From positions 1 through 64,000 of the IMG/VR virus record IMGVR_UViG_3300031784_002630: 64,000 bases of DNA; one strand, 5' to 3'. The notes under the pieces are model-generated. The model was not told the origin of the DNA. It searched no databases and was given only the letters and a program-made list of their open reading frames with translations. A program made the translations under genes and the position numbers. Below are positions 3,164-25,316 of the stretch, one piece after another; position 1 is the first letter of the stretch; each line of letters opens with the position of its first letter. The stretch is from a virus.

Positions 3164-4030
3164 ATGTCAAATGAAAATGTAATCTACAACCCATATTACG
3201 GGGACAATTTATGTAATCTACTAGCGAATTCAATAGTTGAAAAAATTAAATCCGTTGACCCAAAATTATACGTCAACATATCTGTTACCAACGTAAATAG
3301 TTTTTTTATGACCTGTGGTGAAACAGAATACACAGAACCATTAGACATTACCGAAATATTCAATAGTGTCATGGAGAACGTCCCTGAACCCTTAAAAATG
3401 ATTGTTAAAGTATTTGACTTAATATCATATAATACCAAAAGAGTTTCAAGTACAATTTTATACACAGAACATTTTTCAAAATACAAAAAAACATTATCTG
3501 AAAATTTTACAAAGTATTCTGAAATACTCAAACTAAATAAAAAAGAATGTTACACCAATATCAAATGTTTTAATACGGATGTTTATATTGAAACGATTTC
3601 AAACGTAAATGAAGTAAAATTACCTAAGGGTTATATAGATTGGAAACCCAACACCAAAGTCTTTACCTCGTTACCAATTTTTGGTAAAGACTTAAACAGT
3701 GAAAAATACATTTACATGTTGTTCAGATACATCGCACATACCTTGTTTGAAGCTGGGTTGTGTAATGTTGTAAAACTATCTGTTAATACAAATAATCCTG
3801 TGGACCAATTGTATTGGGATAATGTTAACTTTGAAATTGATAGTGAATATTTCTTAACTTCAAAGAAGTGGACTGAAAGTTTAGTTTTGGATATTTTTAA
3901 CTTTGAGGTTAATAAAGTTATTGAAGATTTAAACTTAGAAGTTTATGACTTTGCCAATGAAATTCTTCACGAGAATGAAAATTACCCTTGGCTTAGAAAT
4001 GATAAGTTAAATGATATTGTACTGGTTTAA
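3164..4030 (+). CDS. Diverged S-adenosylmethionine synthetase-like protein, 288 aa
   Basis: Two stretches follow the order and spacing of MetK. The N-terminal part (residues 12-70) has the GD..C..LANSIVEKI..DP....I pattern, then CGETEY and DITEIF, matching the HPDK..D.I.D..L..DP....E and GE......D.EEI blocks. The C-terminal part has RYIAHTLFEAGL, matching RYVAKNIVAAGL, and then a YPWLRNDK tail matching FPWEKTDK. The catalytic HPDK, GDQG and Lys/Asp loops are absent or replaced, and the length is about 290 rather than 385. I therefore infer a MetK-fold protein that probably does not make AdoMet in the usual way. It is convergent with the methyltransferase operon, the stops overlapping by three bases. 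Confidence 0.5.
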   Translation: MSNENVIYNPYYGDNLCNLLANSIVEKIKSVDPKLYVNISVTNVNSFFMTCGETEYTEPLDITEIFNSVMENVPEPLKMIVKVFDLISYNTKRVSSTILYTEHFSKYKKTLSENFTKYSEILKLNKKECYTNIKCFNTDVYIETISNVNEVKLPKGYIDWKPNTKVFTSLPIFGKDLNSEKYIYMLFRYIAHTLFEAGLCNVVKLSVNTNNPVDQLYWDNVNFEIDSEYFLTSKKWTESLVLDIFNFEVNKVIEDLNLEVYDFANEILHENENYPWLRNDKLNDIVLV

Positions 4031-4551
4031 ACTCGTTTGGAGTAACCAACAATTTGGTAGAAATCTTTTTTACCATCACAGTAATCCTTAACCAATTGGA
4101 GTAATGTTTTAAACATAAATGCCCCTGTGGTTTGTTTTTCACACTTGGTGAATAATTCAATAAAGGCTGTCAATGTTTCAATAGAGTAATATCCGTGTTG
4201 ATTTAAACTATCATAATCAAAAGTTGGGTAAAACAATAACTCGTAGTTATTCCTTTCATCCACACTATTAAATGGTTCGGTTCTTTCGTAATAATCCAAC
4301 ATTGTCTGAACATATTCCCCAACAATTTTTTTACTGTATTCACACTTAACTAATAGGTCAACAATCCAATGTGTGTGACTTGGTGTACGTAACCTTTGAC
4401 CTTTTGATTTGTATTTCACAATGAAATCTAAATCAGGGTTTTCACCACGAAATCCCTGATAGATTCCAATTGCCGTTCCATCACCAGTAACATAATACTT
4501 TAAAGGATTATGTCTTACGTCTTTTCCTTTTTCTTTATATGACAAGTCCAT
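4027..4551 (-). CDS. Hypothetical protein of the methyltransferase operon, 174 aa
   Basis: A soluble protein with no domain I can name. The stretch PDLDFIVKYKSKGQRLRTPSHTHW (residues about 39-62) is rich in conserved-looking polar residues and could be part of a nuclease-like core, but a proper PD-(D/E)XK arrangement is not convincing. It is the last gene of an apparent HNH endonuclease, methyltransferase, this-gene unit, five bases after the methyltransferase stop. Its position makes a restriction enzyme or methyltransferase accessory possible. That is inference from context only. Confidence 0.7.
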   Translation of the reverse strand: MDLSYKEKGKDVRHNPLKYYVTGDGTAIGIYQGFRGENPDLDFIVKYKSKGQRLRTPSHTHWIVDLLVKCEYSKKIVGEYVQTMLDYYERTEPFNSVDERNNYELLFYPTFDYDSLNQHGYYSIETLTAFIELFTKCEKQTTGAFMFKTLLQLVKDYCDGKKDFYQIVGYSKRV

Positions 4552-6995: not shown

Positions 6996-8650
6996 TCAAA
7001 ATTAAAATTGTTTGATGATTCAACTGTTTTGTCCCATTGTACCAATCCAATATAATATTGACCTAATTGTGAGTCATTTGGTTCTTTAAGTATCATTTTT
7101 CTTTTAACTGTCTTATTGTTAATATATTGTGTTTTCATAAACATTTCAAATGTTTCAGAGTTCAAGGCTTTATTAACTTGTCCGTCCAAAATTTCCATAA
7201 TATGATTCCAAGATTCAGGAAGTGATTTATTAAATTTACCCAAATATTGAACTCTTGTTATATTCAACTTTTTCTTTGATGGGTCATAGTTTAACATATA
7301 TTCAATTGTTCCTCTTTCCACCCCATTTGCATTTCTTAAAGAAACTATAACACTTGGACATTTATCAATATATGTTCTTACACAGTTATTTTGATATGCG
7401 CTTTCCTCATTATATTCATCAGAAGAACGTAATAACACTGGTTGGTATTCAATACCACTGAAATCATATATTGATTGTTCTACGTTGTCCACAAACCCAT
7501 CATTATAATTTCTTACATGGTACCCTTGTTTATATGTTGATATTAAAACGGACCAATTAGCATGTTCGGTTACAAAATCATCAATTGTTTTAGCGTTTAG
7601 TGAAACTTGTTCACCGTATGTTTTTAATTGGTTGTAATACATTATATGGTCGTTCAATGTATTTTGATTAATATCACCATTTAATTGCCATTTGAAGTAT
7701 GTAAATATTTTTTCTTTTTCACTTTTGGTGAAGTCATCAGGAAAATTATACATACAGTTGTTACTTGGTTGATTTAATAAATCTAATATAATTTTATTTT
7801 GATAAACTTTATCATAACCAAAATATTTTATCGTATACCTAAGAGAGTGGATATTTGTATGATTACACACATGCAAATTTTTCTTAATTTCATTACCACT
7901 AATACCGTGATGTGACATGAAGGCATCAATAAATTTTAAGTTATGTTTTTTTAAAACGTTGAATTTTGGTAAATGTTCTAAGTATTGTACATCAATAAAC
8001 GCATTAAAATTATTAGGTAATTTGACACCTTTTTTAAGTAAGGAATACCTAACTAAACTTTTAGCTAATTCAATATTATTCATATCATAGTTTATTTCAG
8101 GAAAATTATGAAATCCCAATGCGTATGAAAATTCTGATAATAAATTTCTTTTTATTGTACCATCATGAAGATTGTTTTTATATGGTGATGTAATCATTGA
8201 GAGTTGTTCTGAAATCATCCCAAGATAATTACATGGATTCTTTCTTATTACCTTTGTAAACTTTCTTTTGTTTTGATAATTTAAAATGTGACCAACATAA
8301 AAATCGCCAGTCCTTCTATTAACTGTTAAAAAATAACAATTTTTTATTTTACCAAAAAACCTAATACCAACTCTTCTATGGTAAACTGAAATAAATAATT
8401 TCAAAGATAGTTTATCACCACTTTCCTCTAAAACAATCATTTTATTTCTTTGGGTGACGGCACACATTAAATTTGAATAGTTTTCTAAAAAACTTTCTTC
8501 ATCGTGATGTGATTCCCCTGAAAGTTCAAAAATACCTTTTCGTATTTTTGATTTATCATAACCCCTATAGTTTTCAAAAACAAGATGGTCCTGATAAAGA
8601 TGAGTTTCATAACTTTTAAATTCCTGTTTAAAAATTTCTTTTTTTTCCAT
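6983..8650 (-). CDS. PcfJ-like protein, 555 aa
   Basis: Residues about 415-475 carry the pattern of the PcfJ-like family: AYQNNCVRTYIDKCPSVIV, then LR, then GTIEYML strands and a RVQYLGKFN segment. This corresponds to the QNCV..Y...I..G...I..LR...........V.Q..G..N signature. The family occurs on conjugative plasmids and in phages; its biochemical role is not settled. The N-terminal 400 residues are helix-rich without a named domain. The gene begins one base inside the stop of the small upstream gene at 8650-8925, so translation is coupled. Confidence 0.75.
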   Translation of the reverse strand: MEKKEIFKQEFKSYETHLYQDHLVFENYRGYDKSKIRKGIFELSGESHHDEESFLENYSNLMCAVTQRNKMIVLEESGDKLSLKLFISVYHRRVGIRFFGKIKNCYFLTVNRRTGDFYVGHILNYQNKRKFTKVIRKNPCNYLGMISEQLSMITSPYKNNLHDGTIKRNLLSEFSYALGFHNFPEINYDMNNIELAKSLVRYSLLKKGVKLPNNFNAFIDVQYLEHLPKFNVLKKHNLKFIDAFMSHHGISGNEIKKNLHVCNHTNIHSLRYTIKYFGYDKVYQNKIILDLLNQPSNNCMYNFPDDFTKSEKEKIFTYFKWQLNGDINQNTLNDHIMYYNQLKTYGEQVSLNAKTIDDFVTEHANWSVLISTYKQGYHVRNYNDGFVDNVEQSIYDFSGIEYQPVLLRSSDEYNEESAYQNNCVRTYIDKCPSVIVSLRNANGVERGTIEYMLNYDPSKKKLNITRVQYLGKFNKSLPESWNHIMEILDGQVNKALNSETFEMFMKTQYINNKTVKRKMILKEPNDSQLGQYYIGLVQWDKTVESSNNFNFDLDF

Positions 8651-8970: not shown

Positions 8971-10247
8971 CAAATTCTCAATTTCACTTTCAAATCCTCA
9001 GGAAGTTTTAAGCTATCACATCCTTTGAAGTTCACCAATTTAAGATTTGGTAAATCTTTCAAACATTCAGGAATTGATTTAAGATTCTTGTTGTTTGGAA
9101 GTGACAAGTATCTTAATTTCTTACAGTCACATATTTCAGATGGTAATTCACTAATCAATCCATCAATGTGAAGTCCTTCAAGGTTTGTTAATCTACCGAT
9201 TGTTTTTGGTAATGGGAAACCTTGTGAACCTGAATTTCCACCTGAGAAATCCATTTTTGTAATAGTATCAGGCAATGATTCAAAGAACTCATCAAATCCA
9301 TATAACGCAATGAATTGTGCTGCTGGGCTTCTTGGGAATTCAACATCAACCGATGTTCCTCCTTTACCTGAACTCTTGGTCATATTTTCCATAAACTGAG
9401 GTTTGAAGTATTCTTTTACTTCTTTGTCAGTTTGATTTAAAAACTCAACTAAGTTGATTGAACGGTCATCCTTGTCCATGAATTGAGAACTTTGGAAATG
9501 GAATTGCCATCTATTTGTTGGTAATCCAGTATCTTTAGATGGTTCAGAGTTTTTGTCGTAAATCTGGTACAATGGACCGTCTTTGATATATCTTTCAAAA
9601 TAAGACAAACCTGGTGCTGATGTGCACCATCTTGTTTCTTTATTTTGACCACCGTAGAAACAAGCCGCTTCTTTACCCAATTCATCTGTTCTTGTAATTT
9701 TTGTAATTACATAGTTTGGTGTTTCAACTTCAAATGAACCACCAGGATGTGAATATTTAGCATCTTTTCTTTCTGCTTTAGTTGTTGTCGCTTTTTCTAA
9801 TGAAAAATCTTTAACCAAATCATAAAGTTCGTCTGAGGTCAATTTATTAATATCTCTTTTGTCAACAGGTAATTGATTCTTGAATCTTTCAAATTTAATT
9901 AAATCATCTTTAACCTTATATAAATCCTCAAAAAATAAATCAATTCTTCCTTGTGATTCTCCTGTAATATTTTTACCAACACCTTCAGGACGTAATCTTT
10001 TAATTTGATTAATCATCCATTGAACATATCCACCAGTCTTTTTAACTTGGTTAAAATTTTCAGGATTTTCCTCAACTCTTGATGTTGGGTCATTGGCAAT
10101 TAATATCAATAACTCATTAGGTGTCAAAACAGGTCTAATTTTTTTACCTGTTTTTTTATCAACTGTTGGCTCAGTAAACTTCTTCAAGAAGAGTTCTGAA
10201 CGAACATCTTCATTGATGATAGTTTTTAACATTTCTGTGAATTTCAT
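8964..10247 (-). CDS. WCT-motif protein with C-terminal leucine-rich repeats, 427 aa
   Basis: Residues about 195-225 carry CFYGGQNKETRWCTSAPG followed by YFERYIKDGPLYQIYD, the same WCT signature as the left-edge protein. From about residue 335 there are leucine-rich repeats with 22-24-residue spacing: LPKTIGRLTNLEGLHIDG, LPSEICDCKKLRYLSLPNN and IPECLKDLPNLKLVNFKGC. LRR regions usually bind proteins. The N-terminus MKFTEMLKTIINE has the form of a capsid-targeting leader ending in (L/I)-x-E. Known: LRR and WCT patterns. Inferred: a packaged, protein-binding virion component or injected effector. Confidence 0.8.
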   Translation of the reverse strand: MKFTEMLKTIINEDVRSELFLKKFTEPTVDKKTGKKIRPVLTPNELLILIANDPTSRVEENPENFNQVKKTGGYVQWMINQIKRLRPEGVGKNITGESQGRIDLFFEDLYKVKDDLIKFERFKNQLPVDKRDINKLTSDELYDLVKDFSLEKATTTKAERKDAKYSHPGGSFEVETPNYVITKITRTDELGKEAACFYGGQNKETRWCTSAPGLSYFERYIKDGPLYQIYDKNSEPSKDTGLPTNRWQFHFQSSQFMDKDDRSINLVEFLNQTDKEVKEYFKPQFMENMTKSSGKGGTSVDVEFPRSPAAQFIALYGFDEFFESLPDTITKMDFSGGNSGSQGFPLPKTIGRLTNLEGLHIDGLISELPSEICDCKKLRYLSLPNNKNLKSIPECLKDLPNLKLVNFKGCDSLKLPEDLKVKLRIWG

Positions 10248-10291: not shown

Positions 10292-11134
10292 TTAATAGTT
10301 CATAATCAATAATTCTTGTCCCATATTTTGTGTTACACCTTTTTTTGCAGAAGCCGCCTTAGCAAACTCTTTCATTTTCCAAGTGTATTCTGATTCAGGA
10401 AACCATGTGTGTAACAATTCAAAGTCATAATATGACAACGAAAACTTACCTTTAACATCATGTAATACTTTTGCCAACCTTTCGTGGTCTTCACGGTCAA
10501 AGTCATGATTAGAATAATAGTTTTCAGTTTTCCAATACGGTGGGTCCAAATAAATGTAAGTAGATTCAGAGTCATACTTTTTAATAACATCAGCAAAGTC
10601 CATATTTTCAACTTTTGTTATTTTGTTGAAGTGTTCAACCCAATCAGGTTTACTTAACTTGTCCCTAAATGTCAAAAACTTTGATTTGTAATTACCTTTC
10701 AAGTCAATAAACCCAGATGATTCAGGTTTTGAACCGCTAAAGATTGATGTAAGAATGTATGCGTATTTTGCGGCAACTTCATAATCAGGATAATTTACTG
10801 TAAATCCAGATGCGTACAATTCTTTTTGGAATGTATCAAATTGTTCTTTGTAAATTAATGGCGTTACGCTTTCACCACGTTGTTGACATGGTATGTTGTT
10901 TACAGCTTTTAATAGTTCTGAAGGGTTCTGAATACATCTAAATAGATTGTAATTTAGAGGATTAAAGTCGTTATAAACAACTTCTTTTAAATTTGGAAAT
11001 TTTTTTAAATCCATATTAAAAAAACACCAAAACATTCCACCAAATGTTTCTACGTATGTTTCCATGTCTTTTGGATAAAATTCATTTATCCATTTTCCTA
11101 TTCTACTTTTACCACCAATATAACTTAATGCCAT
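10292..11134 (-). CDS. Dam-like DNA adenine methyltransferase, 280 aa
   Basis: An N6-adenine DNA methyltransferase of the Dam (alpha, DPPY) class. It has GGKSRIGKWI at residues 7-16, the AdoMet motif TYVETFGGMFW near 26-36, and the catalytic DPPYW near residue 195. Length matches Dam-family enzymes. Motif I is slightly unusual (ETFGG instead of EPFGG). The upstream neighbour, three bases away, is a LAGLIDADG endonuclease. Likely role is modification of phage DNA against restriction or to mark replication status. Confidence 0.9.
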   Translation of the reverse strand: MALSYIGGKSRIGKWINEFYPKDMETYVETFGGMFWCFFNMDLKKFPNLKEVVYNDFNPLNYNLFRCIQNPSELLKAVNNIPCQQRGESVTPLIYKEQFDTFQKELYASGFTVNYPDYEVAAKYAYILTSIFSGSKPESSGFIDLKGNYKSKFLTFRDKLSKPDWVEHFNKITKVENMDFADVIKKYDSESTYIYLDPPYWKTENYYSNHDFDREDHERLAKVLHDVKGKFSLSYYDFELLHTWFPESEYTWKMKEFAKAASAKKGVTQNMGQELLIMNY

Positions 11135-11137
11135 AAC

Positions 11138-11821
11138 TTATTTTTTTCTATATTTTTGTTTATTTTTTATTGTTTCAATTACTTCGTCAAATATAAGTCT
11201 TTTTCTTTGAAGAAAAAAGTTTGAGTCAAAATAAAATCCGTAATATATATTTTCAATGTCTTTCATTCCTGACCATCCAATAAATTTATATTCTTTATTT
11301 TTTGGTCCGTATAATTTGTTAATGTTTGTACCAAACAATAAATTCATTCTTTCATTAATGTTGTTTAACATATCCAAAGACCCTCCAACAATTTTTAAAT
11401 CACCTCTTTGTGAACCATCTCTTTTGTCGGTATTAATTCTTATGCATCCATCACCATCAAAATAACCCCTTAAAAAATGTCTTTCAAATTTTTCATTAAT
11501 TTGAGGATATTTTACAGAAAATGTTTTATTTTGTAATACACCCAATTTTTCTAAATCATTAATTATTTTTTTTCCAGACATAAAAACTTCACAAGTTTCT
11601 CTTTTTTTGTTTTTCCAAACATTCATTTCACCGTCAATGGATTTAATAAATTTCTCTAAGATACCAACATCTTTACTATGTAATTTTAAAGTTAATTGAT
11701 ATCGGTGTTTTCTTGGGTCGTTGGTTACGCACCCATCCGCAAATATAAATCCCAAAAAGTAAGCTTTTTCTTCACTGTCTATTGTTTCAAAATAATTTTC
11801 ATTATATATTTTCTTTTTCAT
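11138..11821 (-). CDS. LAGLIDADG homing endonuclease, 227 aa
   Basis: Two LAGLIDADG motifs are present, YFLGFIFADGC at residues 21-31 and FLRGYFDGDGC near 115-126, each ending in the acidic catalytic residue. Two motifs in one chain indicate a monomeric homing endonuclease. It sits three bases upstream of the Dam-like gene in the same direction and overlaps the small ribbon-helix-helix gene, so it is a free-standing element rather than inside an intron. It cleaves DNA to promote its own inheritance. No intron boundaries were recognised. Confidence 0.9.
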   Translation of the reverse strand: MKKKIYNENYFETIDSEEKAYFLGFIFADGCVTNDPRKHRYQLTLKLHSKDVGILEKFIKSIDGEMNVWKNKKRETCEVFMSGKKIINDLEKLGVLQNKTFSVKYPQINEKFERHFLRGYFDGDGCIRINTDKRDGSQRGDLKIVGGSLDMLNNINERMNLLFGTNINKLYGPKNKEYKFIGWSGMKDIENIYYGFYFDSNFFLQRKRLIFDEVIETIKNKQKYRKK

Positions 11822-12039: not shown

Positions 12040-12183
12040 ATGATTATGTCAGAATGTAAGCAATGTAAAAAGAAACCGTTAACTCGTTATAATACTTTTG
12101 TAACGGTTATTTCAGTTTATCTACTAATAACATCTGTGTTAGGTACAATTGAACTATATAAGTTCATCTTATCACTTTTTTAA
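12040..12183 (+). CDS. Small CxxC membrane protein, 47 aa
   Basis: Translates as MIMSECKQCKKKPLTRYNT, followed by a hydrophobic segment (FVTVISVYLLITSVLGTIELY). It has a short Cys-containing basic head (C6xxC9) and one membrane span. The second ATG at 12046 (MSEC) is an equally good start. It converges on dnaJ and overlaps its end by 12 bases. Function unknown; small single-span proteins of this kind are common in large phages. Confidence 0.6.
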   Translation: MIMSECKQCKKKPLTRYNTFVTVISVYLLITSVLGTIELYKFILSLF

Positions 12184-13179
12184 TATACTCAAGATTTTTT
12201 CTTTTTGTTCTTCAGTAATTTTACTCAATGAACGATTCACATGTATTTTGACTATCAAATCACCCCTTCCTTCATTGATATAATATCCTTTACCTTTAAT
12301 TCTCAATGGTTTTTCAGTTGTTAAAGTATCAACAGGTACCTTAATCATTAACTCACCTTCAGGGTGTGGTATTTTAAAACTATTTTCAGTTATAAAATCT
12401 TCTGGTGATACTCTTATGTTAGCATATAAGTCAGCGCCAATTTTCTCAAAATTTTCATCAGGGTTTAATCTGATTTGAATTACCAAATCACCAACCCCAA
12501 CACTATTTTGATAATCACCGGCATTTGGAACCCTCAAGAAATCACCATTGTCTAATGAACGTGGTATATTAATATCTATGGATGCAAATGTTGGTTTGTG
12601 ACCATTGCCATTGCACGTAAAACACGTTTCAATCAATACTGAACCCTGACCCTTACAAGATGGACAATCGTGGGTCTGAACGTGTATCTGACCACCAAAA
12701 TTAAACTGTTGTTGAACAACACCCCTTCCTTGACAAGTCATACATTGTTCACGTTTTCCACCATTACCACTACAAACGCTACATTGTTCTTTTTTGTGGT
12801 AATTAATCTTTTTGTTTGACCCCAACATTGATTCAGAGGGTGTTACATGTACGTTCAATACTTTGTCAGGAGCTCTTTGTCTTCTCCTTTGTTGAAATGG
12901 ATTAAATCCACCGTTAAACATTGAAAACAAGTCATCCATACCTCCACCACCTGAACCATTAAACATACCGCCAAATGGGTTGTTTTTTTTATTATCATAT
13001 TCTTGTCTTTTTGATTCAGTACCAATTGTGTCATACGCTTCAGCTATTTCCTTAAACCTATCAGCACCTTCAGGGTTTACATCTGGGTGGAATTGCTTAC
13101 TTAATTTCCTATAGGCTTTCTTTATTTCCTCTTGGGAAGCTTTTTCATTAACACCTAATATTGAGTAGAAATCTTTCAT
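12172..13179 (-). CDS. dnaJ: DnaJ co-chaperone, full domain set, 335 aa
   Basis: The J domain (residues 1-65) has the HPD tripeptide at 31-33 that stimulates DnaK ATPase. A Gly/Phe-rich linker spans about 68-100. All four zinc repeats are present: CSVCSGNG, CMTCQGRG, CPSCKGQG and CFTCNGNG, between about 133 and 197. The C-terminal substrate-binding beta domains follow. It is slightly shorter than bacterial DnaJ (about 375). No DnaK or GrpE lies in the window, so it presumably recruits the host DnaK for virion assembly or replication. Its ATG overlaps the ATG of the divergent gene at 13178 within a CATG palindrome. Confidence 0.95.
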   Translation of the reverse strand: MKDFYSILGVNEKASQEEIKKAYRKLSKQFHPDVNPEGADRFKEIAEAYDTIGTESKRQEYDNKKNNPFGGMFNGSGGGGMDDLFSMFNGGFNPFQQRRRQRAPDKVLNVHVTPSESMLGSNKKINYHKKEQCSVCSGNGGKREQCMTCQGRGVVQQQFNFGGQIHVQTHDCPSCKGQGSVLIETCFTCNGNGHKPTFASIDINIPRSLDNGDFLRVPNAGDYQNSVGVGDLVIQIRLNPDENFEKIGADLYANIRVSPEDFITENSFKIPHPEGELMIKVPVDTLTTEKPLRIKGKGYYINEGRGDLIVKIHVNRSLSKITEEQKEKILSILKK

Positions 13180-13819
13180 GAATTACATTGTTGTATTGTT
13201 TAAGAATAAGAAAAGAAAAAAAATCATCAAATCTTTTGTTAGAAAAAATGTTGCGGAATTGTATTTTAAGAAAATTTGTGAGCAATCTGACCAAGTAAAG
13301 TTTAATGTTGAGGTTGAAAACTCATTGGATGTAACGTATGAAGTTGGTTTATTATCTAAAACTATTGATACCCAATTTCAATTATTCTCTCAAGATGATA
13401 TTGGTAGAAATGTTAGGGTAAACCTTGATGATTCTGATTTACAGATAATTAAAATTCACAAATATAGAATACCTGAAAAATTACAGGATTGGTCAACAAA
13501 TAAAAGAATTACATATGATGAATTCTTTAAAAAACATTTTACCAACAAAGATTTAAAGAATGTTTTTACCGTTAATAATAAAATTGTCATTCAAAAAGAC
13601 GATGATACATCAATATATTCATTGAAAAATGTTGATGAGTCACAAAGGTTATTAATGTTATTACAGGATGAATTTATTAGGTTAAAAAGGGCAGACGCAA
13701 TATTTGTTAAAGACATGGATACTATACAAAGAAAGTATCTGTATGAACATTTGGAAAAATTGGGTATAGATAAAAAAAGATTGTATAGACAATCTACTAC
13801 TTTTTCAGAACGAAAGTAA
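13178..13819 (+). CDS. Hypothetical protein, 213 aa
   Basis: A basic N-terminal strand and helix (MNYIVVLFKNKKRKKIIKSF) is followed by beta-rich sequence and a helical, charged C-terminus. No family is recognised. It is transcribed away from dnaJ, the two start codons sharing the CATG at 13177-13180, so neither gene has an untranslated leader between them. Any promoter must lie within the other gene. Its stop region overlaps the convergent 74-residue gene by 23 bases. Confidence 0.75.
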   Translation: MNYIVVLFKNKKRKKIIKSFVRKNVAELYFKKICEQSDQVKFNVEVENSLDVTYEVGLLSKTIDTQFQLFSQDDIGRNVRVNLDDSDLQIIKIHKYRIPEKLQDWSTNKRITYDEFFKKHFTNKDLKNVFTVNNKIVIQKDDDTSIYSLKNVDESQRLLMLLQDEFIRLKRADAIFVKDMDTIQRKYLYEHLEKLGIDKKRLYRQSTTFSERK

Positions 13820-14021
13820 AATCAACGTCTGAAATCGAAATAACAATTTCATTATTTCCTTTGTCAATTTCCCTAAAATTAGTTTGTAATTTTCTAAATT
13901 TTTCTTCAGGTAATTCCACTATAATCTTGCTGTGTCCTGAAATAAATGTATTTTCAATTGATTCTGTTAGTTCAGCCAACTGTGTTAACCAATCCCTAGA
14001 GTTTTCTTTATTCTCTTCCAT
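13797..14021 (-). CDS. Hypothetical protein, 74 aa
   Basis: A small acidic protein starting MEENKENSRDWLTQLAELTES, ending in alternating strands (NEIVISISDVDFTFVLKK). It overlaps the preceding gene by 37 bases in another frame. It is the last of four overlapping small genes. No function recognised. Confidence 0.6.
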   Translation of the reverse strand: MEENKENSRDWLTQLAELTESIENTFISGHSKIIVELPEEKFRKLQTNFREIDKGNNEIVISISDVDFTFVLKK

Positions 14022-14212
14022 AACGAAATGTCTGTTGGTTCAATATCAATTGTATTTTTAATATCTTCTTTATTAATAGTTTTTAAGCTTTTAACAAAAT
14101 TTTCTTTTTGTAATTGGATTTCATTTTGGTCCTGAAGTTTTGACTTGTCATACCAATCCAATAATTTATCAAGATATGGATTCTTGTTCTGATTCGAGTT
14201 TTGGGATGTCAT
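13985..14212 (-). CDS. Hypothetical protein, 75 aa
   Basis: A hydrophilic protein starting MTSQNSNQNKNPYLDKLLDWYD and ending LWKRIKKTLGIG, a basic amphipathic tail. Overlaps both neighbours (37 and 44 bases) in the same direction, as expected of coupled small phage genes. Function unknown. Confidence 0.6.
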   Translation of the reverse strand: MTSQNSNQNKNPYLDKLLDWYDKSKLQDQNEIQLQKENFVKSLKTINKEDIKNTIDIEPTDISLWKRIKKTLGIG

Positions 14213-14570
14213 CTACGTCAAATTTTAAATTTTTCAAATCTTCCAATCCACCTTTTTCAAATAAAGTTTTTAATTCATTAACCTTTTCTTTGAAAAGTCT
14301 TTCTTTTTCCTCTTTCTCCTTATTGTAATTAATAACTGTTTCAATATTATTGATTGTTTCAGATATTGATTCTTCGTTTATTTCAGAAACAAACGAAATG
14401 TTTTTACTTTTATCGTCAGATTTATTGAATACTGTTTTGGTTTCATCAACCTGACTTTTTAATACCGCCCAACTCGCAGGAAATACCATATCAAAACTTA
14501 AATAAGTTTTAAGTTTTCTTATCGATGCACAATAATCAACAATGTTTTCAATTTCTTTGTATAAACTCAT
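14169..14570 (-). CDS. Hypothetical coiled-coil protein, 133 aa
   Basis: N-terminal helices (MSLYKEIENIVDYCASIRKLK) and a long charged, helix-forming C-terminal half (KEKEEKERLFKEKVNELKTLFEK near residues 84-106). No membrane span. Four-base overlap with the upstream membrane protein gene. Function unknown. Confidence 0.7.
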   Translation of the reverse strand: MSLYKEIENIVDYCASIRKLKTYLSFDMVFPASWAVLKSQVDETKTVFNKSDDKSKNISFVSEINEESISETINNIETVINYNKEKEEKERLFKEKVNELKTLFEKGGLEDLKNLKFDVDDIPKLESEQESIS

Positions 14571-14758
14571 AGTCCAAAAACAATATAAGTAATTAAATAC
14601 GACAATGTCAAACCATAGTATGTAAGTTCCCCCAAACTCATCTCCATTTTAGTGAATGAGATGAGAGAACTTACAAATCTAATAGATAATCTGAGTAAAC
14701 TCAGAATTGAGAATACAAATACAAATGTTGCAATATAATATAAAATATTATTCACCAT
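14567..14758 (-). CDS. Small membrane protein, 63 aa
   Basis: Two hydrophobic segments (NILYYIATFVFVFSILSLLRL near residues 4-24 and LTYYGLTLSYLITYIVFG near 45-62) flank a short polar stretch, so two membrane spans are predicted. It overlaps the Hc1-like gene by 11 bases and the next gene by 4. Function unknown; a holin role is possible from size and topology but it lies 3.5 kb from the endolysin. Confidence 0.65.
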   Translation of the reverse strand: MVNNILYYIATFVFVFSILSLLRLSIRFVSSLISFTKMEMSLGELTYYGLTLSYLITYIVFGL

Positions 14759-14924
14759 CTTTCTTTGAATCCAAAATTTCAGCTCTTAGTGCTTGTGCTA
14801 ATGCTTTCAACTCTTGACAAGTTTTTCTTGCTCTTGTTCCCGCTGATTTGTTTCCTGCGTAAAATTTGTTAGTATCAACTGACAATGTTTCAACAAGAAC
14901 TTTGATTTTTTCTAATGTTTCCAT
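14748..14924 (-). CDS. Hc1/histone H1-like protein, 58 aa
   Basis: Residues 16-55 (VDTNKFYAGNKSAGTRARK, then TCQELKALAQALRAEILDSKK) match the histone H1-like Hc1 family of Bacteroidota, whose consensus is DFxKFYxKGNKxAGTRxRKxMQELKxLAQEIRxEV. These are small DNA-binding proteins found in nearly all Bacteroidota genomes, so this is either an acquired host gene or a phage version. It probably binds or compacts DNA. It lacks the long Lys/Ala tail of chlamydial Hc1. First gene of an overlapping cluster of small genes. Confidence 0.85.
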   Translation of the reverse strand: METLEKIKVLVETLSVDTNKFYAGNKSAGTRARKTCQELKALAQALRAEILDSKKDGE

Positions 14925-15006
14925 CTTTATAATTGTTTTTTAATTTATTTTTTATTTTAGATAATTTTAATTTTATTATGCTGGTAGTAAAGAGAATAAA
15001 GAAAAA

Positions 15007-15492
15007 TTAAACTTCTAAACTTTTTTCTAATAGTTTGTACAACTCAGTAAACATCTCAATATCAGATTTTGAATGTTGATTTTTTCTCGAGAATATTGAT
15101 GTAAAAAAATCATTTAAAGAATTTTTGACAACTTCTTGGTCTTGGTTATAAAATACATCCATAAAAAAACTTTTGAAGTATTCATAACTCTCGTCAGTTT
15201 TAACAAAGAATATGTTTTCTTTTGAAAAGTTTTCAACTGTTTTATTCCAACACCAAATGAAATGTGATTCTTTATCTTCTAAAGTTAATCCAATATTGGT
15301 TTCTTTATTGTCATTGGATGTATCACCTAAATAAGTGTCTTGAACCAAGTTAAGTAATGAGAAACAAAAATCTCTGAATAAATCACTTAATTCAGGAATA
15401 ATATTGTTTGCTTTATACCAAGCATCAATTTCTTCGTAGTTCATCGGTTTAGCTAGCCAATTAAAAAATTGGTCCATATTATACTTCTTCAT
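15007..15492 (-). CDS. Hypothetical protein, 161 aa
   Basis: A soluble, aromatic-rich helical protein (MDQFFNWLAKPMNYEEIDAW at the N-terminus, FIWCWNKTVENF near residue 78). No family recognised. It stands alone, with 82 bases to the Hc1-like gene and 47 to the repeat protein. A TATATTTC sequence six bases before the ATG could be a weak promoter. Confidence 0.75.
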   Translation of the reverse strand: MKKYNMDQFFNWLAKPMNYEEIDAWYKANNIIPELSDLFRDFCFSLLNLVQDTYLGDTSNDNKETNIGLTLEDKESHFIWCWNKTVENFSKENIFFVKTDESYEYFKSFFMDVFYNQDQEVVKNSLNDFFTSIFSRKNQHSKSDIEMFTELYKLLEKSLEV

Positions 15493-15539: not shown

Positions 15540-17336
15540 TTATTGAGTTTTTCTGTTGTAATCAATAAGATTTTTCATTTTTTCCATATCACTGATTACT
15601 TTTTTGTTTTCAACTGACTCTTCAAGCTTGTTAAAAATTTGTTGTGTTGCTTTCAACGATTTCAAATTACCGTTTGATTTTTCACTACCAGCAATGTCAA
15701 CAGGTGCTGGTTGTCTCTTATAAGATGCGTTCATTTGTTCTGCACCATATAAATTTTCTTTATAATTCTTGTAGAATTTTTCACCTACTTCACTTGGTAC
15801 TACATTACCTAAAGCGTTACCGTCTTCATCAACTTGTGCGTTACCAGTAGTTGAGTGACCTTTTAAGTACTTTTCAATTTTAGTATCATCAGGTTTGATT
15901 TCATCAAATACTAAATTTGTTTGACCAGGATACGCGAAAGCATCTATATATTCATCTACAGCGTTCGATGCGTCATAAGCATTTTTCTTGTCATCAGAAA
16001 CTTCTTTACCAAAATCTTCTCTTGACATAATTTTATTACCTTTAGGAAATGACTGTGGGTTTTCTTCATATTCAGTACCCATGTTTTTCATGTAATCCTT
16101 CATTTTAGCCGCTACTTGTTTCATAGCATCTGTATTTTCTTTCTTAGTTGTATTCATTGCGGTTTTAAACCCTTTGTCTACAACTTTTTCAGCTTCAACT
16201 AATCTTTCAATAAAGTTAATTAATTCAGATTCTGTAAAAACAACTTTTTCTTTAGTATTTTTATTTTTACTTTCTTTTACTTGATATGTTTTTCCGTCAA
16301 CTTCAAAAGAACTTTTACCATCTTTTTTAGCATTTGCTAAAGCTCCTGAAAATGCGTTACCTTCCCCCACTTCGTTTTCACCCATTTCATTTTTTCTTGT
16401 TTTTACCTTAAATGGTTTACCTGTCATTTCTCTATATTTGTTAAACATTGTTTCACCATTTCTTTTATTAAACCAAGATTGTTTATCGCCATATTTGTCA
16501 TATAATTGCTGAAAAGTATCAAATTCTTCAGTATCAAAATCATCACCACCTATACCATAGATATCTCCACTTCTAACCGGTCTGTCTTTTTCGTCACGGT
16601 ATTCATCACCTTTAAAATCTTTTCTTTTAGGGTCACCAAATGAACCATACATAGCTTCACCAATTTCATTTTTTCTTGTTTTTACCTTAAATGGTTTACC
16701 TGTCATTTCTCTATATTTGTTAAACATTGTTTCACCATCTCTTTTATTAAACCAAGATTGTTTATCACCATATTTGTCATATAATTGTTTAAAAGTATCA
16801 AATTCTTCAGTATCAAAATCATCACCACCTATACCATAGATATCTCCACTTCTAACTGGTCTGTCTTTTTCGTCACGGTATTCATCACCTTTAAAATCTT
16901 TTCTTTTAGGGTCACCAAATGAACCATACATACCTTCTTCAATTTCCATATCTTCTGAGTCTCTGTTGTCAAATCTACCCTGACCAGGTCCAACATAGTG
17001 CCAACCCCTAATATCGTCATAGTCATATCCTAAATTTCCTAAATATGGGTTTTCTTTTCTGTCTTTTTCACGAGCAACTTCAGGGTCTTCTTTTTTACCA
17101 AACATTTTCTTGAATATGTTTTCTTCACCCATTTCACCTGAAACAATCTCACCGTATTCAAACCCAGCTGGTGTTCTATCTTTATCTGACATCTTATCTC
17201 TTAATTTCTTAAATATATCTTTTTTAGATATAACTGTTTCAGCAGCAGAATCGTCATCCATATCAGTAATATCAATGAAAGTATCTTCATCTTCCTTGAT
17301 AATCTTCTTAAGTAAATTTAAAATTTTGTTTTCCAT
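15540..17336 (-). CDS. Acidic repeat protein, probable virion component, 598 aa
   Basis: A hydrophilic, acidic protein. Residues about 132-317 are a tandem pair of 93-residue repeats beginning EAMYGSFGDPKRKDFKGDEY and containing DFDTEEFDTF and KQSWFNKR. The N-terminus MENKILNLLKKIIKE has the form of a capsid-targeting leader cut after (L/I)-x-E, and a similar ESELINFIERLVEAEK segment recurs near residue 360. No enzyme domain is visible. Its position near lysis and virion genes and the TATTTATA element upstream suggest late expression. A scaffold or internal head protein is possible. Confidence 0.75.
   Translation of the reverse strand: MENKILNLLKKIIKEDEDTFIDITDMDDDSAAETVISKKDIFKKLRDKMSDKDRTPAGFEYGEIVSGEMGEENIFKKMFGKKEDPEVAREKDRKENPYLGNLGYDYDDIRGWHYVGPGQGRFDNRDSEDMEIEEGMYGSFGDPKRKDFKGDEYRDEKDRPVRSGDIYGIGGDDFDTEEFDTFKQLYDKYGDKQSWFNKRDGETMFNKYREMTGKPFKVKTRKNEIGEAMYGSFGDPKRKDFKGDEYRDEKDRPVRSGDIYGIGGDDFDTEEFDTFQQLYDKYGDKQSWFNKRNGETMFNKYREMTGKPFKVKTRKNEMGENEVGEGNAFSGALANAKKDGKSSFEVDGKTYQVKESKNKNTKEKVVFTESELINFIERLVEAEKVVDKGFKTAMNTTKKENTDAMKQVAAKMKDYMKNMGTEYEENPQSFPKGNKIMSREDFGKEVSDDKKNAYDASNAVDEYIDAFAYPGQTNLVFDEIKPDDTKIEKYLKGHSTTGNAQVDEDGNALGNVVPSEVGEKFYKNYKENLYGAEQMNASYKRQPAPVDIAGSEKSNGNLKSLKATQQIFNKLEESVENKKVISDMEKMKNLIDYNRKTQ
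16384..16941 (-). repeat. In-frame tandem duplication, 2 x 279 bp
   Basis: Positions 16384-16662 and 16663-16941 are nearly identical, with a period of exactly 279 bases (93 codons), inside the acidic repeat protein. Only scattered substitutions separate the copies, so the duplication is recent. Confidence 0.95.
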
Positions 17337-18720: not shown

Positions 18721-19251
18721 TTAATTTTCCTTTACTGATGTTTTCTTTCTTCCGGCAATTACCTTAGCCCATTTAGATTTGAACTTCTCATAATATCCTG
18801 TTAGTTTACTAATAGTATCCATAAACTTCTCGTCGAGTTTTAATTGGTTACCATTAATATATACACCATTTTGTTCACCAATTGTCATAAAAAATTCAAT
18901 ATCGTGGTCAATAATTTTACCACTCCATTCTACAGAATTTTTATACAAGTTTAAAGGACCAAAATCTGTCAAATCAGATACTTCAGAAACAAATTCGTCC
19001 ATTGTCTCTTGGAATGTTGTTTTATCATCAGTAGTGATTGATGTTTCAGTAGCGTTTGTACCATGAATAACTAAGATACCACCTGAAACTCTATACTTTT
19101 TGTATTGGTCTTTTGGTGTTTTTTGTTCATCTTGGTCAATTTTTTCTTCAATATCAGCACCGATATTTGGTGCACCTATTGGTTGTTCTGTTAGTAATCT
19201 TGACCTTTTCAAAAGGTCTTTAATTTCGTCGTATTGATTATTGTTCATCAT
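18721..19251 (-). CDS. Hypothetical protein in the lysis cluster, 176 aa
   Basis: A soluble protein with a polar N-terminal arm (YDEIKDLLKRSRLLTEQPIG) whose LLTE fits an (L/I)-x-E cleavage site, then a beta-rich core (YRVSGGILVIHGTNA...) and a basic C-terminus (KVIAGRKKTSVKEN). No family recognised. It overlaps the amidase gene by 14 bases. A virion-internal protein is one reading; a lysis regulator is another. Confidence 0.7.
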   Translation of the reverse strand: MMNNNQYDEIKDLLKRSRLLTEQPIGAPNIGADIEEKIDQDEQKTPKDQYKKYRVSGGILVIHGTNATETSITTDDKTTFQETMDEFVSEVSDLTDFGPLNLYKNSVEWSGKIIDHDIEFFMTIGEQNGVYINGNQLKLDEKFMDTISKLTGYYEKFKSKWAKVIAGRKKTSVKEN

Positions 19252-19798
19252 TAAAGTTTTCTAATAAATATACGAAGTTGAAAGCTGGCGACAAATCTGT
19301 GTAATCTTCTGACAAATTACTTCTATTAATTATTCCGTTGAATTTTTCAACCCCGTTTAATTTGGTATTATGACCTATAAATTTTTTTGGTATTTTGAAT
19401 TCTTCACATAATGTAGTACACAATTTAACCAAACTTTGTAATTGTTCTTCACTGTATTTGTCCCAAAAATATTTGTTTCTCCATTTTCTTTCATGAACAT
19501 CTGTAACTTTGTTTCCCAACCAATTTGAATAAGTTGTTGATAGTAAATTTTTATTTACCCAACCTAAGTTTTCTAAACAAATAACAATTGATTTATCACC
19601 AAGTTTTTTATCTTCTAAAAACTCTGAGGATTTTTCAGGTGATAATGTCTCAACAACTGAACCATCCTTTAATATAACATAATTGGGAAGTCGGTCATAC
19701 TTCCCATTATTTCTAAAATCTAGTGACGTTAAATAATCTTTTCCCACCCTTGATGTGTGGCTTAAAATTATTAATTTTTTCTTTTTTGATTCAGTCAT
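19238..19798 (-). CDS. Endolysin-like N-acetylmuramoyl-L-alanine amidase, 186 aa
   Basis: Resembles the Amidase_2/PGRP fold: a first strand with the zinc-ligand His (IILSHTSR), PNYVILKDGSV, then IVICLENLGWVNK, and YSEEQLQSLVKLCTTLCEEFKIP followed by KFIGHNT, which carries a second His. The usual C-terminal DPG/K motif is not clear, so the enzyme is diverged. No signal peptide, as expected for an endolysin that needs a holin. Neighbouring membrane and spanin-like genes support a lysis role. Confidence 0.7.
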   Translation of the reverse strand: MTESKKKKLIILSHTSRVGKDYLTSLDFRNNGKYDRLPNYVILKDGSVVETLSPEKSSEFLEDKKLGDKSIVICLENLGWVNKNLLSTTYSNWLGNKVTDVHERKWRNKYFWDKYSEEQLQSLVKLCTTLCEEFKIPKKFIGHNTKLNGVEKFNGIINRSNLSEDYTDLSPAFNFVYLLENFNDEQ

Positions 19799-20893: not shown

Positions 20894-21721
20894 TTATAAA
20901 TAGTCAAATAATGTTGAACACTCATTACGTAATTTACGTAACGCTTTTTCTTTAATTTGACGAACTCTTTCCTTAGTCAATTTAAAATCATTACCGATGT
21001 CTTCAAGTGTTCTTGGAGTTCCAGTTAGTCCAAAATAGTCCTCAACAATAATTCTTTCACGTTCATCCAAGATGCTCAAAATGGAAAGTAGTTTTTCTTT
21101 TAACATTTCCTCAGTATTCAACCCTTCGTCAGGCATTGAAGCGTTTTGGTTAATAATCATATCCAAAAGTGTATCACCATCTTCATTAATTGTTTGTTGC
21201 AAATTAATTGTAGTTGGGAGTGTGGCTAATCTACTGTCGAGTTCCGAAATACCTTTATCGACTTCTTTCTTTGCCCTGTGTAGCTCTTGAACCACATTTA
21301 CAGGAAGACGAATTGTTCGTGCGTTTTCATTAAGGGATTGTAAGATTGATTGTTTAACCCACCAAACAGCGTATGAAATAAAACGTAATTTTTTAGTCCA
21401 ATCGAAGTTTTGAATGGCTTTTATTAATCCTAAGTTCCCTTCAGCAATCAAATCTGAAAGGTCTAATCCTTGATTTTGGTATTGTTTAGCAACTGTAATT
21501 ACAAAACGTAAATTACCTTCGAGTAATTCTTTGTGAATCTGTTGTTTTTGACGCTCAGTACAATTTATATCTAAAATCAAATCTGACAGTTGACGTTCAC
21601 GGTCAGGTGTCATTACTTTTAGTTTACGAATGTCCTTAAGGTATGATGAAATTTCTTCTTGGTTAATAGAACCTGTGTTCTTAGTTGTTTGGTGGTTTTT
21701 AGATAGCTCTGGAGTAGTCAT
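20894..21721 (-). CDS. Sigma-70 family RNA polymerase sigma factor, RpoD-like, 275 aa
   Basis: Region 1.2 (YLKDIRKLKVMTPDRE), region 2 (GNLRFVITVAKQYQNQGLDL, DLIAEGNLGLIKA, and RFISYAVWWVKQSILQ, the -10-recognition/melting part), a shortened region 3, and region 4 with LEDIGNDFKLTKERVRQIKEKAL, the helix-turn-helix for the -35 element. It is strikingly close to the Bacteroidota primary sigma, which is also about 285 residues and lacks region 1.1. It should redirect host RNA polymerase. Region 3 and the -10-contacting residues differ from the host form. It overlaps the upstream gene by 23 bases. Confidence 0.95.
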   Translation of the reverse strand: MTTPELSKNHQTTKNTGSINQEEISSYLKDIRKLKVMTPDRERQLSDLILDINCTERQKQQIHKELLEGNLRFVITVAKQYQNQGLDLSDLIAEGNLGLIKAIQNFDWTKKLRFISYAVWWVKQSILQSLNENARTIRLPVNVVQELHRAKKEVDKGISELDSRLATLPTTINLQQTINEDGDTLLDMIINQNASMPDEGLNTEEMLKEKLLSILSILDERERIIVEDYFGLTGTPRTLEDIGNDFKLTKERVRQIKEKALRKLRNECSTLFDYL

Positions 21722-22780: not shown

Positions 22781-25105
22781 TTACTGTATTACCTTTGAAA
22801 TATTATCTTCTTTTTTAATCTTAACTACGTTGTCCGACCAATTTGATACCAATGGGTTGTGGGTAATTACAAACACTTTTTCAAAGTAATCCTTAATCTT
22901 AGTAAAAAATTCCCCTACCATGTCAAGGTTTTCATTCGATACCTTACCAAACACCTCGTCAAATACAACTATGTTTGGTTTAGGTAGTGAACATACTTTA
23001 CTTAAAACCGCTCTTAGTGCCAATGAGGCGATTGTCCTTTCAAAACCTGAACCACTTGCCATTAGTTTTTCAACACCTGTCCCATTGTCAACCATCACAA
23101 ATTCAACTTCATTCTTGTCATTAATTCTAACTTCAAGTTTAAAGAACGCACTATCTTGTAACAATCTTTGTAACTCATCGTTAATCAATGGTGTCATGGT
23201 TTTCATAATCATTTTTGAAATACCGTTCTTACCAAAGATTTCCAAGTAGGTTTTATAAATCTTTTCTTTTTCGAACTCGGATGCAATTTGTGTTATGATA
23301 CCTTGTTTGTTTTTGATATCACGTTCACAATTCTGAATCATCGTTTTGTTGGAAGATATTTTAGATGTGTGAGATGTTTTTTCACGTTCAATTTCTTCTA
23401 TGCGAAGATTAGCTTTAATGATTTGTTCTTCAATGCTCTTGTTCTTTTCAATCTTTGTTTGAACTTGGTGATATCTTTCAAGTTTCCCCTCAGCATTGGC
23501 GAGCTTGAGACCGTCTGCCTCAAGAGTAAGTTCATACTTTTCTTTGATGAGTTTGCTCTTCTCGTATTGTTCGAATTCTTTCTTAATTTGTACATATTCT
23601 TTTTCTTTTGTATTAAGTTCTATTAAAACACAATTTAGGTTTTCACTTTGTTCCTTCAGGGAGTCTATTTCTGAAAGTTTAGCTTGTGTTAAAGCTGCGT
23701 TCATTAAATCAATTCCACAGTGTTCACATTTGATTCCACCTGACACTGTCTTGGACAATTGGACCAATTCGTTAATCTTTACATCAACAAGTGTTTTTTG
23801 TTTGTAATTGTCATTGTAAGATTCTTTAATTAAATCATACTCATCCTCTTTAAAGTACTTTGATGGTTCAACCACATCAACTTCTTTGATTTGTAATTTG
23901 GTTGTATTAATCTTTCCTTTGAGAGTTGTAATCTCGGATTCAAGTGTTGACAAATTAAGAACTAACAATTCGTGGTCGATATCATTGTATTTTTGTGAAA
24001 TCAACCCTTCTTTGTAATCCCTACCTTTTGTTAACCTTGTATCTGCATCTAAAATCTTGACATCTAAATCTTTGTTTTCATTTTCATAGCTTACAATTTT
24101 ACCTTCTAAATCTATAATATCAGATTTTAATGTCTCGGTATTATAGACATTCGACATCATTGATTTGTTAAATTCAGAGTAGAGTTCCTTACCAGTCTCT
24201 TCTTTTTTCTTCAAGAATTCAAGACCCAAAAATCTTGATAAGACCTGACCACGAGCGGTTGGTTTGGCTTCCAATAAGTCTTCCAAATTTGACGCTGTGG
24301 TCAAGATTGTCATTAAGAAGTCATCAATATCCCCAATTGAATTCTTGATGAAACTTTCGGTCTCCCTTCTTTGTTCACCTGTGAAATTTTGTAATTGTCC
24401 ATCAGCAAGTTTTTTAAAGAAGTCCAATTCAGTTTTTACATTCCATTCACCTGATTTGGCTTTTTTTCTTTCAATTTGACGAACAATAATGTATTCTTCA
24501 CCATCAATCATAATGTCACCCCTAACTGATACTTTGTTCTTATCAGAAAATCTGTTGAAAATTTCTTCGGCTTTGGTTGTCTTGGTTGTGGTGTTAAAGA
24601 ATAAGAAAAGTAACAAGTCGACAGTTAAGACCGTCTTTCCACCAAAGTTTGGTGGGTCTGACTCAACAACTGTGATACCATTACATTGGTCAAAATCTAG
24701 CACCTGATTTTCACCATAAGACAAGAAGTTTGAAAACTCAATTTTCTTAATGTACCACTTTTTAAATGCGGTAACCTCTTGTGATGTCATTTTATTTTCA
24801 ACCGCAGTATCCAACTTAATAACATCATCAAATATGTTATCTTGTCCCTTCTGTTTAAGAAGTTCTTTCATCAATTCAATCTGGTAGTTTCGGTCCATTA
24901 TATTGAACGAAACGTCCACAGTTTGTTTTACATCACTAGATGTTTTAACTTTGGTTAATACGTTTATGTTTGTTGAGTTATATTTCTTTGAGAAGTATGT
25001 TCTAACACTTTTGATTCTTTCTTGTGTGAAATTTTCAGCAGTATCCTCCCACACCACTTGGACATATGGATTTTCAAGTTTACTTACATCTAATTTGTGT
25101 GTCAT
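22781..25105 (-). CDS. SbcC/gp46-like recombination ATPase, 774 aa
   Basis: An SMC/Rad50-type ATPase. A KIEFSNFLSYGENQVLDF strand and P-loop with NFGGKTV lie near residues 125-155. Long coiled coils flank a zinc hook, CEHC, near residue 458. The signature/Walker B region NIVVFDEVFG is near 713, followed by VFVITHNP. It pairs with the SbcD-like nuclease 1.3 kb upstream, as T4 gp46 with gp47, to process DNA ends in recombination-dependent replication. The P-loop is degenerate (PPNFGGKT), and the N-terminus has an extra domain of about 115 residues. I chose the ATG at 25105 to avoid a 41-base overlap. Confidence 0.95.
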   Translation of the reverse strand: MTHKLDVSKLENPYVQVVWEDTAENFTQERIKSVRTYFSKKYNSTNINVLTKVKTSSDVKQTVDVSFNIMDRNYQIELMKELLKQKGQDNIFDDVIKLDTAVENKMTSQEVTAFKKWYIKKIEFSNFLSYGENQVLDFDQCNGITVVESDPPNFGGKTVLTVDLLLFLFFNTTTKTTKAEEIFNRFSDKNKVSVRGDIMIDGEEYIIVRQIERKKAKSGEWNVKTELDFFKKLADGQLQNFTGEQRRETESFIKNSIGDIDDFLMTILTTASNLEDLLEAKPTARGQVLSRFLGLEFLKKKEETGKELYSEFNKSMMSNVYNTETLKSDIIDLEGKIVSYENENKDLDVKILDADTRLTKGRDYKEGLISQKYNDIDHELLVLNLSTLESEITTLKGKINTTKLQIKEVDVVEPSKYFKEDEYDLIKESYNDNYKQKTLVDVKINELVQLSKTVSGGIKCEHCGIDLMNAALTQAKLSEIDSLKEQSENLNCVLIELNTKEKEYVQIKKEFEQYEKSKLIKEKYELTLEADGLKLANAEGKLERYHQVQTKIEKNKSIEEQIIKANLRIEEIEREKTSHTSKISSNKTMIQNCERDIKNKQGIITQIASEFEKEKIYKTYLEIFGKNGISKMIMKTMTPLINDELQRLLQDSAFFKLEVRINDKNEVEFVMVDNGTGVEKLMASGSGFERTIASLALRAVLSKVCSLPKPNIVVFDEVFGKVSNENLDMVGEFFTKIKDYFEKVFVITHNPLVSNWSDNVVKIKKEDNISKVIQ

Positions 25106-25109
25106 AAAT

Positions 25110-25316
25110 TTAAAGTTCGGTACTATCGGTGGGTTGAATAGGTCCATCATTTTCTGTGGTTCCTGAATTTTTTATGTGTTCCTCATGTAATGCTTTCAAA
25201 TGTTCAACCATTTTCTGATTATACATTTTTTGATACATCTTACCCAATTGGTCAATCTGAGTGTTTCGTTGTTGCACTTTCTTTTTGTGGTCTTTTCTAT
25301 TTCTTGATTTTGGCAT
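25110..25316 (-). CDS. Small basic helical protein, 68 aa
   Basis: MPKSRNRKDHKKKVQQRNTQ at the N-terminus is strongly basic, then a helical middle and an acidic, Thr/Ser tail. It lies four bases before the chosen start of the SbcC-like gene and may be translated with it. A TATTTTTC sequence ends four bases before the ATG. Function unknown. Confidence 0.7.
   Translation of the reverse strand: MPKSRNRKDHKKKVQQRNTQIDQLGKMYQKMYNQKMVEHLKALHEEHIKNSGTTENDGPIQPTDSTEL

Follow-up and report, generated by a model that had tools for sequence, protein, structure and literature searches.

A name such as 'histone H1-like' suggests a DNA-compacting histone, as has been proposed for moraphages (PMC12619734, excerpt). 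The gene at 14748–14924 of the window (the whole 64,000-base stretch analysed here, out of a virus record of 73,330 bases) encodes a protein of this name with 58 residues. The present analysis separates the name from the DNA-binding part, because the phage protein is the head domain only, as are most of the bacterial members examined. A function for this 58-residue head could be the first for an uncharacterized bacterial family.

The phage gene encodes the head of Hc1

The translated protein matches PF07432.18 (Hc1, Pfam) with an E-value of 2.4e-19 and 69.4 bits, passing the curated cut-off of 23.5 bits; residues 1–55 align with positions 1–56 of the 57-position profile. It is the sole PF07432 match in the entire 73,330-base record, and the frame tested on the plus strand of the same stretch is interrupted by stops. 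A scan of viral contigs with Hc1 yielded 139 stretches that encode a relative, and the median dN/dS is 0.13 for the 73 of 120 pairs with dS < 2 (16 hand-picked sequences, first 165 bases; the 47 other pairs were dropped as saturated). These two results place the gene beyond chance. Megablast with positions 10000–34000 of the window gave zero matches, and tblastn at E up to 10 retrieved six records with Hc1-like proteins. Among the PHROGs, the window protein matched only phrog_34555 (0.042), while six of 40 relatives matched phrog_34555 (best 0.0022) and three matched phrog_4704, 'tail length tape measure protein' (best 0.0028). We discount both as family assignments and take them for chance coiled-coil matches.

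The original prediction had proposed an Hc1/histone H1-like protein in a phage, at the head of a cluster of overlapping small genes, that might condense the DNA of the phage or of its host, or else be packaged. The family and the phage context are borne out, with Pfam support far over the cut-off, and the cluster is indeed a run of five overlapping minus-strand ORFs (Table 1). Compaction and packaging stay conjectural; the match covers only the N-terminal, dimerizing half of Hc1. Thus, the observation is real and its interpretation was half right.

Chlamydial Hc1 (HctA) dimerizes through its N-terminus (PMC2848022, excerpt), and its DNA-binding part is the lysine-rich C-terminal tail, not the N-terminal half (PMC3469542, excerpt). 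Residues 2–57 of the phage protein align with positions 5–60 of the 121 positions of the HctA model NF051889 (NCBIfam), at 21.9 bits and therefore below the equivalog cut-off of 100. The C-terminal domain is absent from the phage protein, which ends three residues beyond position 55. None of the 110 distinct phage relatives in the alignment (43 of the window kind, 29 from the huge-phage query and 38 of the cyanophage kind, with L023 left out) has a tail of at least 10 residues past position 55, compared with six of 51 distinct Bacteroidota proteins. Judged by sequence, the head alone is the common form of the Hc1 family among the members examined, and DNA binding is therefore not simply transferable from Chlamydia. 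The tails in Bacteroidota, together with a net charge of +11 to +15 in four of 71 cellular rows, nevertheless lead us to expect DNA binding in part of the family. The window protein itself has a net charge of +2 (pI 8.9), and the values for its distinct phage relatives lie between +1 and +5.

A tailless head could also act as a decoy for the host nucleoid: the pairing half would form mixed dimers with host Hc1 and disable or redirect it in a dominant-negative-like manner. The uniform absence of the tail in the phage relatives is consistent with this, as are the Hc1 genes found across one Bacteroidota class (46 of 149 genomes) and the tails of some Bacteroidota proteins. However, most cellular members are tailless too, so that the missing tail is no sign of a decoy; moreover, 103 of the 149 class genomes are without an Hc1 match. 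We consider a decoy unlikely.

A predicted hairpin with a conserved basic face

AlphaFold2, supplied with 40 sequences, predicts a two-helix hairpin (helices 2–22 and 26–57) with a mean pLDDT of 94.1. The turn carries the conserved motif of the Hc1 family, GN..AGTR.RK. Across 179 distinct members, N25, A28, G29, R31, R33 and R47 are present in 100% and T30 and K34 in 97%, a conservation that is partly forced because the search patterns themselves contain the motif. The same motif is present in 30 Bacteroidota loci that were fetched by profile, not by pattern. In a helical wheel, K26, R33, K40 and R47 face outward on one side of helix 2, one heptad apart, and R31 and a conserved acidic residue at position 17 (helix 1) flank the core. 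The half of the protein formed by helix 2 holds eight K + R versus five D + E. We infer that the outward basic row and the turn motif make up one conserved face, the conservation being computed and the geometry taken from the helical wheel.

Searches of the PDB by sequence gave a best E-value of 0.3. Foldseek returned generic hairpins from the PDB (best E 0.26). In BFVD its best E-value was 0.012, and 'Histone H1 [uncultured virus]' ranked next at 0.11; VIA-align reached a best Z of 8.7, again with generic hairpins such as the FemA arm. No DNA-binding protein was prominent among the structural matches from Foldseek (PDB and BFVD) or VIA-align. The Foldseek and VIA-align lists do include ribosomal chains and the arm of seryl-tRNA synthetase, as would suit a basic hairpin that binds RNA or the ribosome and tunes translation. 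Such matches are generic hairpins with E-values of 0.26 or worse, however, and homology to uL29, which the ribosomal chains among the Foldseek matches had suggested, was rejected: the profile-profile probability was 0.31% over 17 columns, close to the 0.15% of the reversed control (Bacteroidota uL29 profile of 26 sequences from 29 loci, three loci being without a motif-bearing ORF). An RNA- or ribosome-binding role is in our view quite unlikely.

Gene neighbourhood

Table 1. Features around the Hc1 gene of the window. Fractions are loci with a relative, out of the best 80 of 139 Hc1-related viral stretches.
Feature	Coordinates	Strand	Remarks
Hc1-domain protein	14748–14924	-	58-codon ORF, ATG start; PF07432, 69.4 bits; without lysine-rich tail
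Second gene of run	14567–14758	-	63-aa hydrophobic protein, probably a membrane protein (judged by eye); 11-base overlap with Hc1; 57/80
Third gene of run	14169–14570	-	133-aa protein; 80/80
Fourth gene of run	13985–14212	-	75-aa protein; 29/80
Fifth gene of run	13797–14021	-	74-aa protein; 77/80
Convergent 213-aa gene	13178–13819	+	80/80; Hc1-independent anchor for the second scan
DnaJ-type chaperone	12172–13179	-	PF00226, PF01556 and PF00684 over cut-off; 80/80
161-aa gene	15007–15492	-	Upstream of Hc1; 80/80
D12-class DNA adenine methyltransferase	10292–11134	-	
LAGLIDADG-type protein	11138–11821	-	Directly beside the methyltransferase; 9/80
Amidase	19238–19798		Upstream of Hc1
Sigma factor	20894–21721		Upstream of Hc1
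Promoter-like stretch	14943–14991	-	TTTAC 14987–14991; TAAAATT 14963–14969; AATAAAT 14943–14949

In all 56 loci in which both genes were called, the 63-aa hydrophobic gene follows Hc1 at a distance of no more than 20 bases and shares its strand. The 133-aa protein, modelled with a mean pLDDT of 79.2, gave no Foldseek match at E ≤ 0.001 and no Pfam family over its cut-off (best PF00664, 20.5 versus 28 bits).

Several other features of the region were recorded. The LAGLIDADG-type gene, with relatives in so few of the loci, is probably a mobile homing endonuclease. The 598-aa protein encoded at 15540–17336 (minus strand) contains a long, nearly exact internal direct repeat, the two copies of which start MYGSFGDPKRKDFKGDEYRD in translation. 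An SbcC-like protein (22781–25150, minus strand) matches a PHROG profile of 967 positions only from 208 to 953, which implies that the N-terminal part is either absent or located elsewhere. The interval 43634–63697 is rich in glycan genes, among them a GlcNAc-type glycosyltransferase, a nucleotide-sugar epimerase, a carbamoyltransferase and further glycosyltransferases.

Hc1 is a core gene of its locus

From the best 80 of the 139 stretches, 40 distinct Hc1 proteins were aligned. L023, an in-frame fusion of Hc1 with the gene that follows, was omitted, and so were L045 and L072, in which the gene caller missed Hc1 although it is visible in both. In L023 (about 996–1160), the Hc1 reading frame runs on without a break into the C-terminal portion of the neighbouring small hydrophobic protein, a junction that reflects either a fusion or an assembly slip.

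Since the first 80 loci had been selected by similarity to Hc1, conservation among them is inflated, and the count was repeated with loci chosen by neighbouring genes. When the 161-aa gene was used, Hc1 was adjacent in 12 of 12 loci, of which one is truncated where its contig stops. With alignments of the 213-aa gene (its profile built from the Hc1-chosen loci), Hc1 was found in 77 of 80 loci at the same place, on the opposite strand and about 900–1100 bases beyond the anchor; the other three (L372, L384 and L410) lack it but stop < 1800 bases past the anchor, too early for its presence to be judged. Of these 80 loci 26 are near-copies of the first set, and Hc1 is present in 53 of the 54 that are not, the sole exception being one of the three that end early.

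Hc1 is also slow to change. Across 75 loci of the neighbour-chosen set it shares a median of 73% identity with the window, whereas 14 of 15 other gene families lie between 29% and 53% (blastp matches over half of the query, families with at least 20 loci, two near-copies of the window left out). The D12 methyltransferase, at 77% over 76 loci, is the only compared neighbour that exceeds it. On these comparisons of sequences, Hc1 is a core gene of its locus and is under purifying selection. As Hc1 is among the most conserved genes of the region, its role matters to the phage.

The fixed gene order, with the hydrophobic gene so close to Hc1 and the 133-aa gene at every locus, would also suit an adaptor within the operon, Hc1 pairing with the hydrophobic or the 133-aa protein and having no nucleic-acid role. 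Hc1 evolves far more slowly than these presumed partners, however (73% versus 40% and 46%, respectively), and S-SRM01 and the huge-phage records LR756500, LR745206 and LR756502 have Hc1 without the window's flanking genes nearby. An adaptor is therefore not a likely explanation.

A promoter-like element precedes Hc1

Two elements recur upstream of Hc1, TTTAC ∼ 60 bases and AATAAAC ∼ 24 bases before the ATG. In shuffle controls, which leave shared ancestry in place, TTTAC followed after 15–40 bases by ATAAA averaged 2.84 loci, with 7 as the highest count (200 dinucleotide shuffles), compared with 31 of 40 distinct loci observed; the same pattern occurs in 48 of 55 distinct upstream regions of the neighbour-chosen set. 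By gene family, it is found in 76% of 46 Hc1 regions and in ≤ 29% of every other family. When the regions are aligned on TTTAC, columns 22–28 read TAnnTTT, from which the TAAAATT of the window differs by one mismatch. A pair of TTTAC and a TAnnTTT-like element is present in 37 of 46 Hc1 regions (mean 4.3, maximum 11 in 300 shuffles with TTTAC kept and shared ancestry likewise in place), and a stricter form of the pair in 24 of 46.

The Bacteroidota -33/-7 promoter is TTTG / TANNTTTG (PMC6847099, excerpt). The Hc1 elements TTTAC and TAnnTTT are similar to it, with the final G mostly absent; the full -7 element TAnnTTTG occurs in just two of 50 aligned stretches, which makes the promoter reading partial. 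The loose pair is also seen before the 161-aa gene (26/48), a small plus-strand ORF (10/17), the methyltransferase (11/49) and the gene at 18721–19251 (11/44), and it precedes 100 of 1534 genes of ≥ 80 aa. AATAAAC was considered as a region-wide promoter and rejected: it occurs in the 100 bases upstream of 78 of 1534 genes of ≥ 80 aa, and is frequent before Hc1 only. Hc1 probably has its own promoter, used by a host-type RNA polymerase.

The promoter and the neighbours also bear on the idea that Hc1 is a virion or packaging protein that enters the head with the DNA, as proposed in the moraphage paper (PMC12619734, excerpt) and in the original prediction. The core status of the gene would suit this. 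However, the tail is absent and the charge low, the promoter-like element is of host type, and none of the identifiable neighbours (chaperone, amidase, methyltransferase and sigma factor) is a head gene. We regard packaging as very unlikely.

Hc1 in other large phages

The Hc1 of a huge phage (LR756500), used as query, found 52 viral loci, 12 of them with window-type neighbours, and with that of S-SRM01 443 stretches were obtained, 80 loci being retained. In a tree of 117 rows and 59 columns, with 44 of 114 inner branches open, the Hc1 proteins from the phage records of 635 kb and 642 kb are nested in a Bacteroidota group. S-SRM01 and a marine virus instead branch on the Fibrobacterota side, with long branches converging at S-SRM01. 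The starred branches require the 'other phage' label to change three times, which does not imply three gains. The simplest reading of the tree is that large phages acquired Hc1 more than once.

Proposed function

These data are compatible with a small dimer whose binding partner is nucleic acid or a host protein. The likeliest mechanism, to which we assign a probability of roughly 0.4, is a dimeric Hc1 head that binds nucleic acid. The gene, the first of the five-gene run, would be expressed from its own promoter as a stand-alone head, the predicted antiparallel two-helix hairpin of 58 residues. From the literature on Hc1, the hairpin would self-associate like the homologous chlamydial N-terminus, and the resulting dimer or larger oligomer may touch nucleic acid, phage DNA foremost, through GN..AGTR.RK and the face of K26, R33, K40 and R47. 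The head would thus be a small nucleoid-associated protein inside the infected cell.

This reading draws on the PF07432 match, the hairpin model, the conserved basic face, the core status and slow evolution of the gene, the promoter-like element, the dimerizing chlamydial N-terminus, and the existence of tailed or charged cellular members. Against it we count the missing DNA-binding part of Hc1, the net charge of only +2, the lack of a prominent structural match to a DNA-binding protein, the pattern-forced component of the motif conservation and the -7 element, which in most loci is without its final G. We speculate further, and with more doubt, that the tailless hairpin serves large phages in general, which gained it repeatedly and retain it among the slowest-evolving genes of the locus; it could act as a minimal nucleoid protein via its GN..AGTR.RK face or as a decoy that pairs with host Hc1 and so usurps the host nucleoid.

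Comparison with known systems

PF07432 has been described in four complete moraphage genomes, with genome compaction suggested (PMC12619734, 2025; excerpt); that paper was the only hit of a full-text search for PF07432 in the open-licence papers covered. The occurrence of the family in such phages and the compaction guess are thus already published. According to the excerpt, moraphages are large aquatic phages with predicted Bacteroidota hosts in which DnaJ is often present; the absence of the tail, the conservation of the locus and the promoter-like element are not mentioned there. Both DnaJ and PF07432 occur in the window, and contigs bearing window-type loci reach 321,283 bases in length. 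The window's own record, a fragment, has neither a family-B DNA polymerase nor a T4-type prohead protease, but among five sister records the polymerase is over cut-off in all five and the protease in four, and DnaK is present in one of the two sister records tested. Placed by the gene content of these sister records, the window phage most likely belongs in or near the moraphage lineage.

The 'histone H1' of Synechococcus phage S-SRM01, so named by its depositors, is likewise a tailless member of the family (62 aa, in a phage of 240,842 bases). It differs in lying on the other side of the tree, among long branches, and in its gene setting. In S-SRM01 (L135), the 'Histone H1' gene (3971–4159) lies ∼ 3 kb from a gene (7217–7651) with the annotation 'DNA starvation/stationary phase protection protein', which represents another DNA-protecting family.

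The stand-alone Hc1 proteins of Bacteroidota and Fibrobacterota, for which no experimentally tested function was found in the literature searched, resemble the phage protein in being mostly of equal length, tailless and bearers of the same invariant motif. They differ from it, in Bacteroidota, by the six of 51 distinct members that are tailed.
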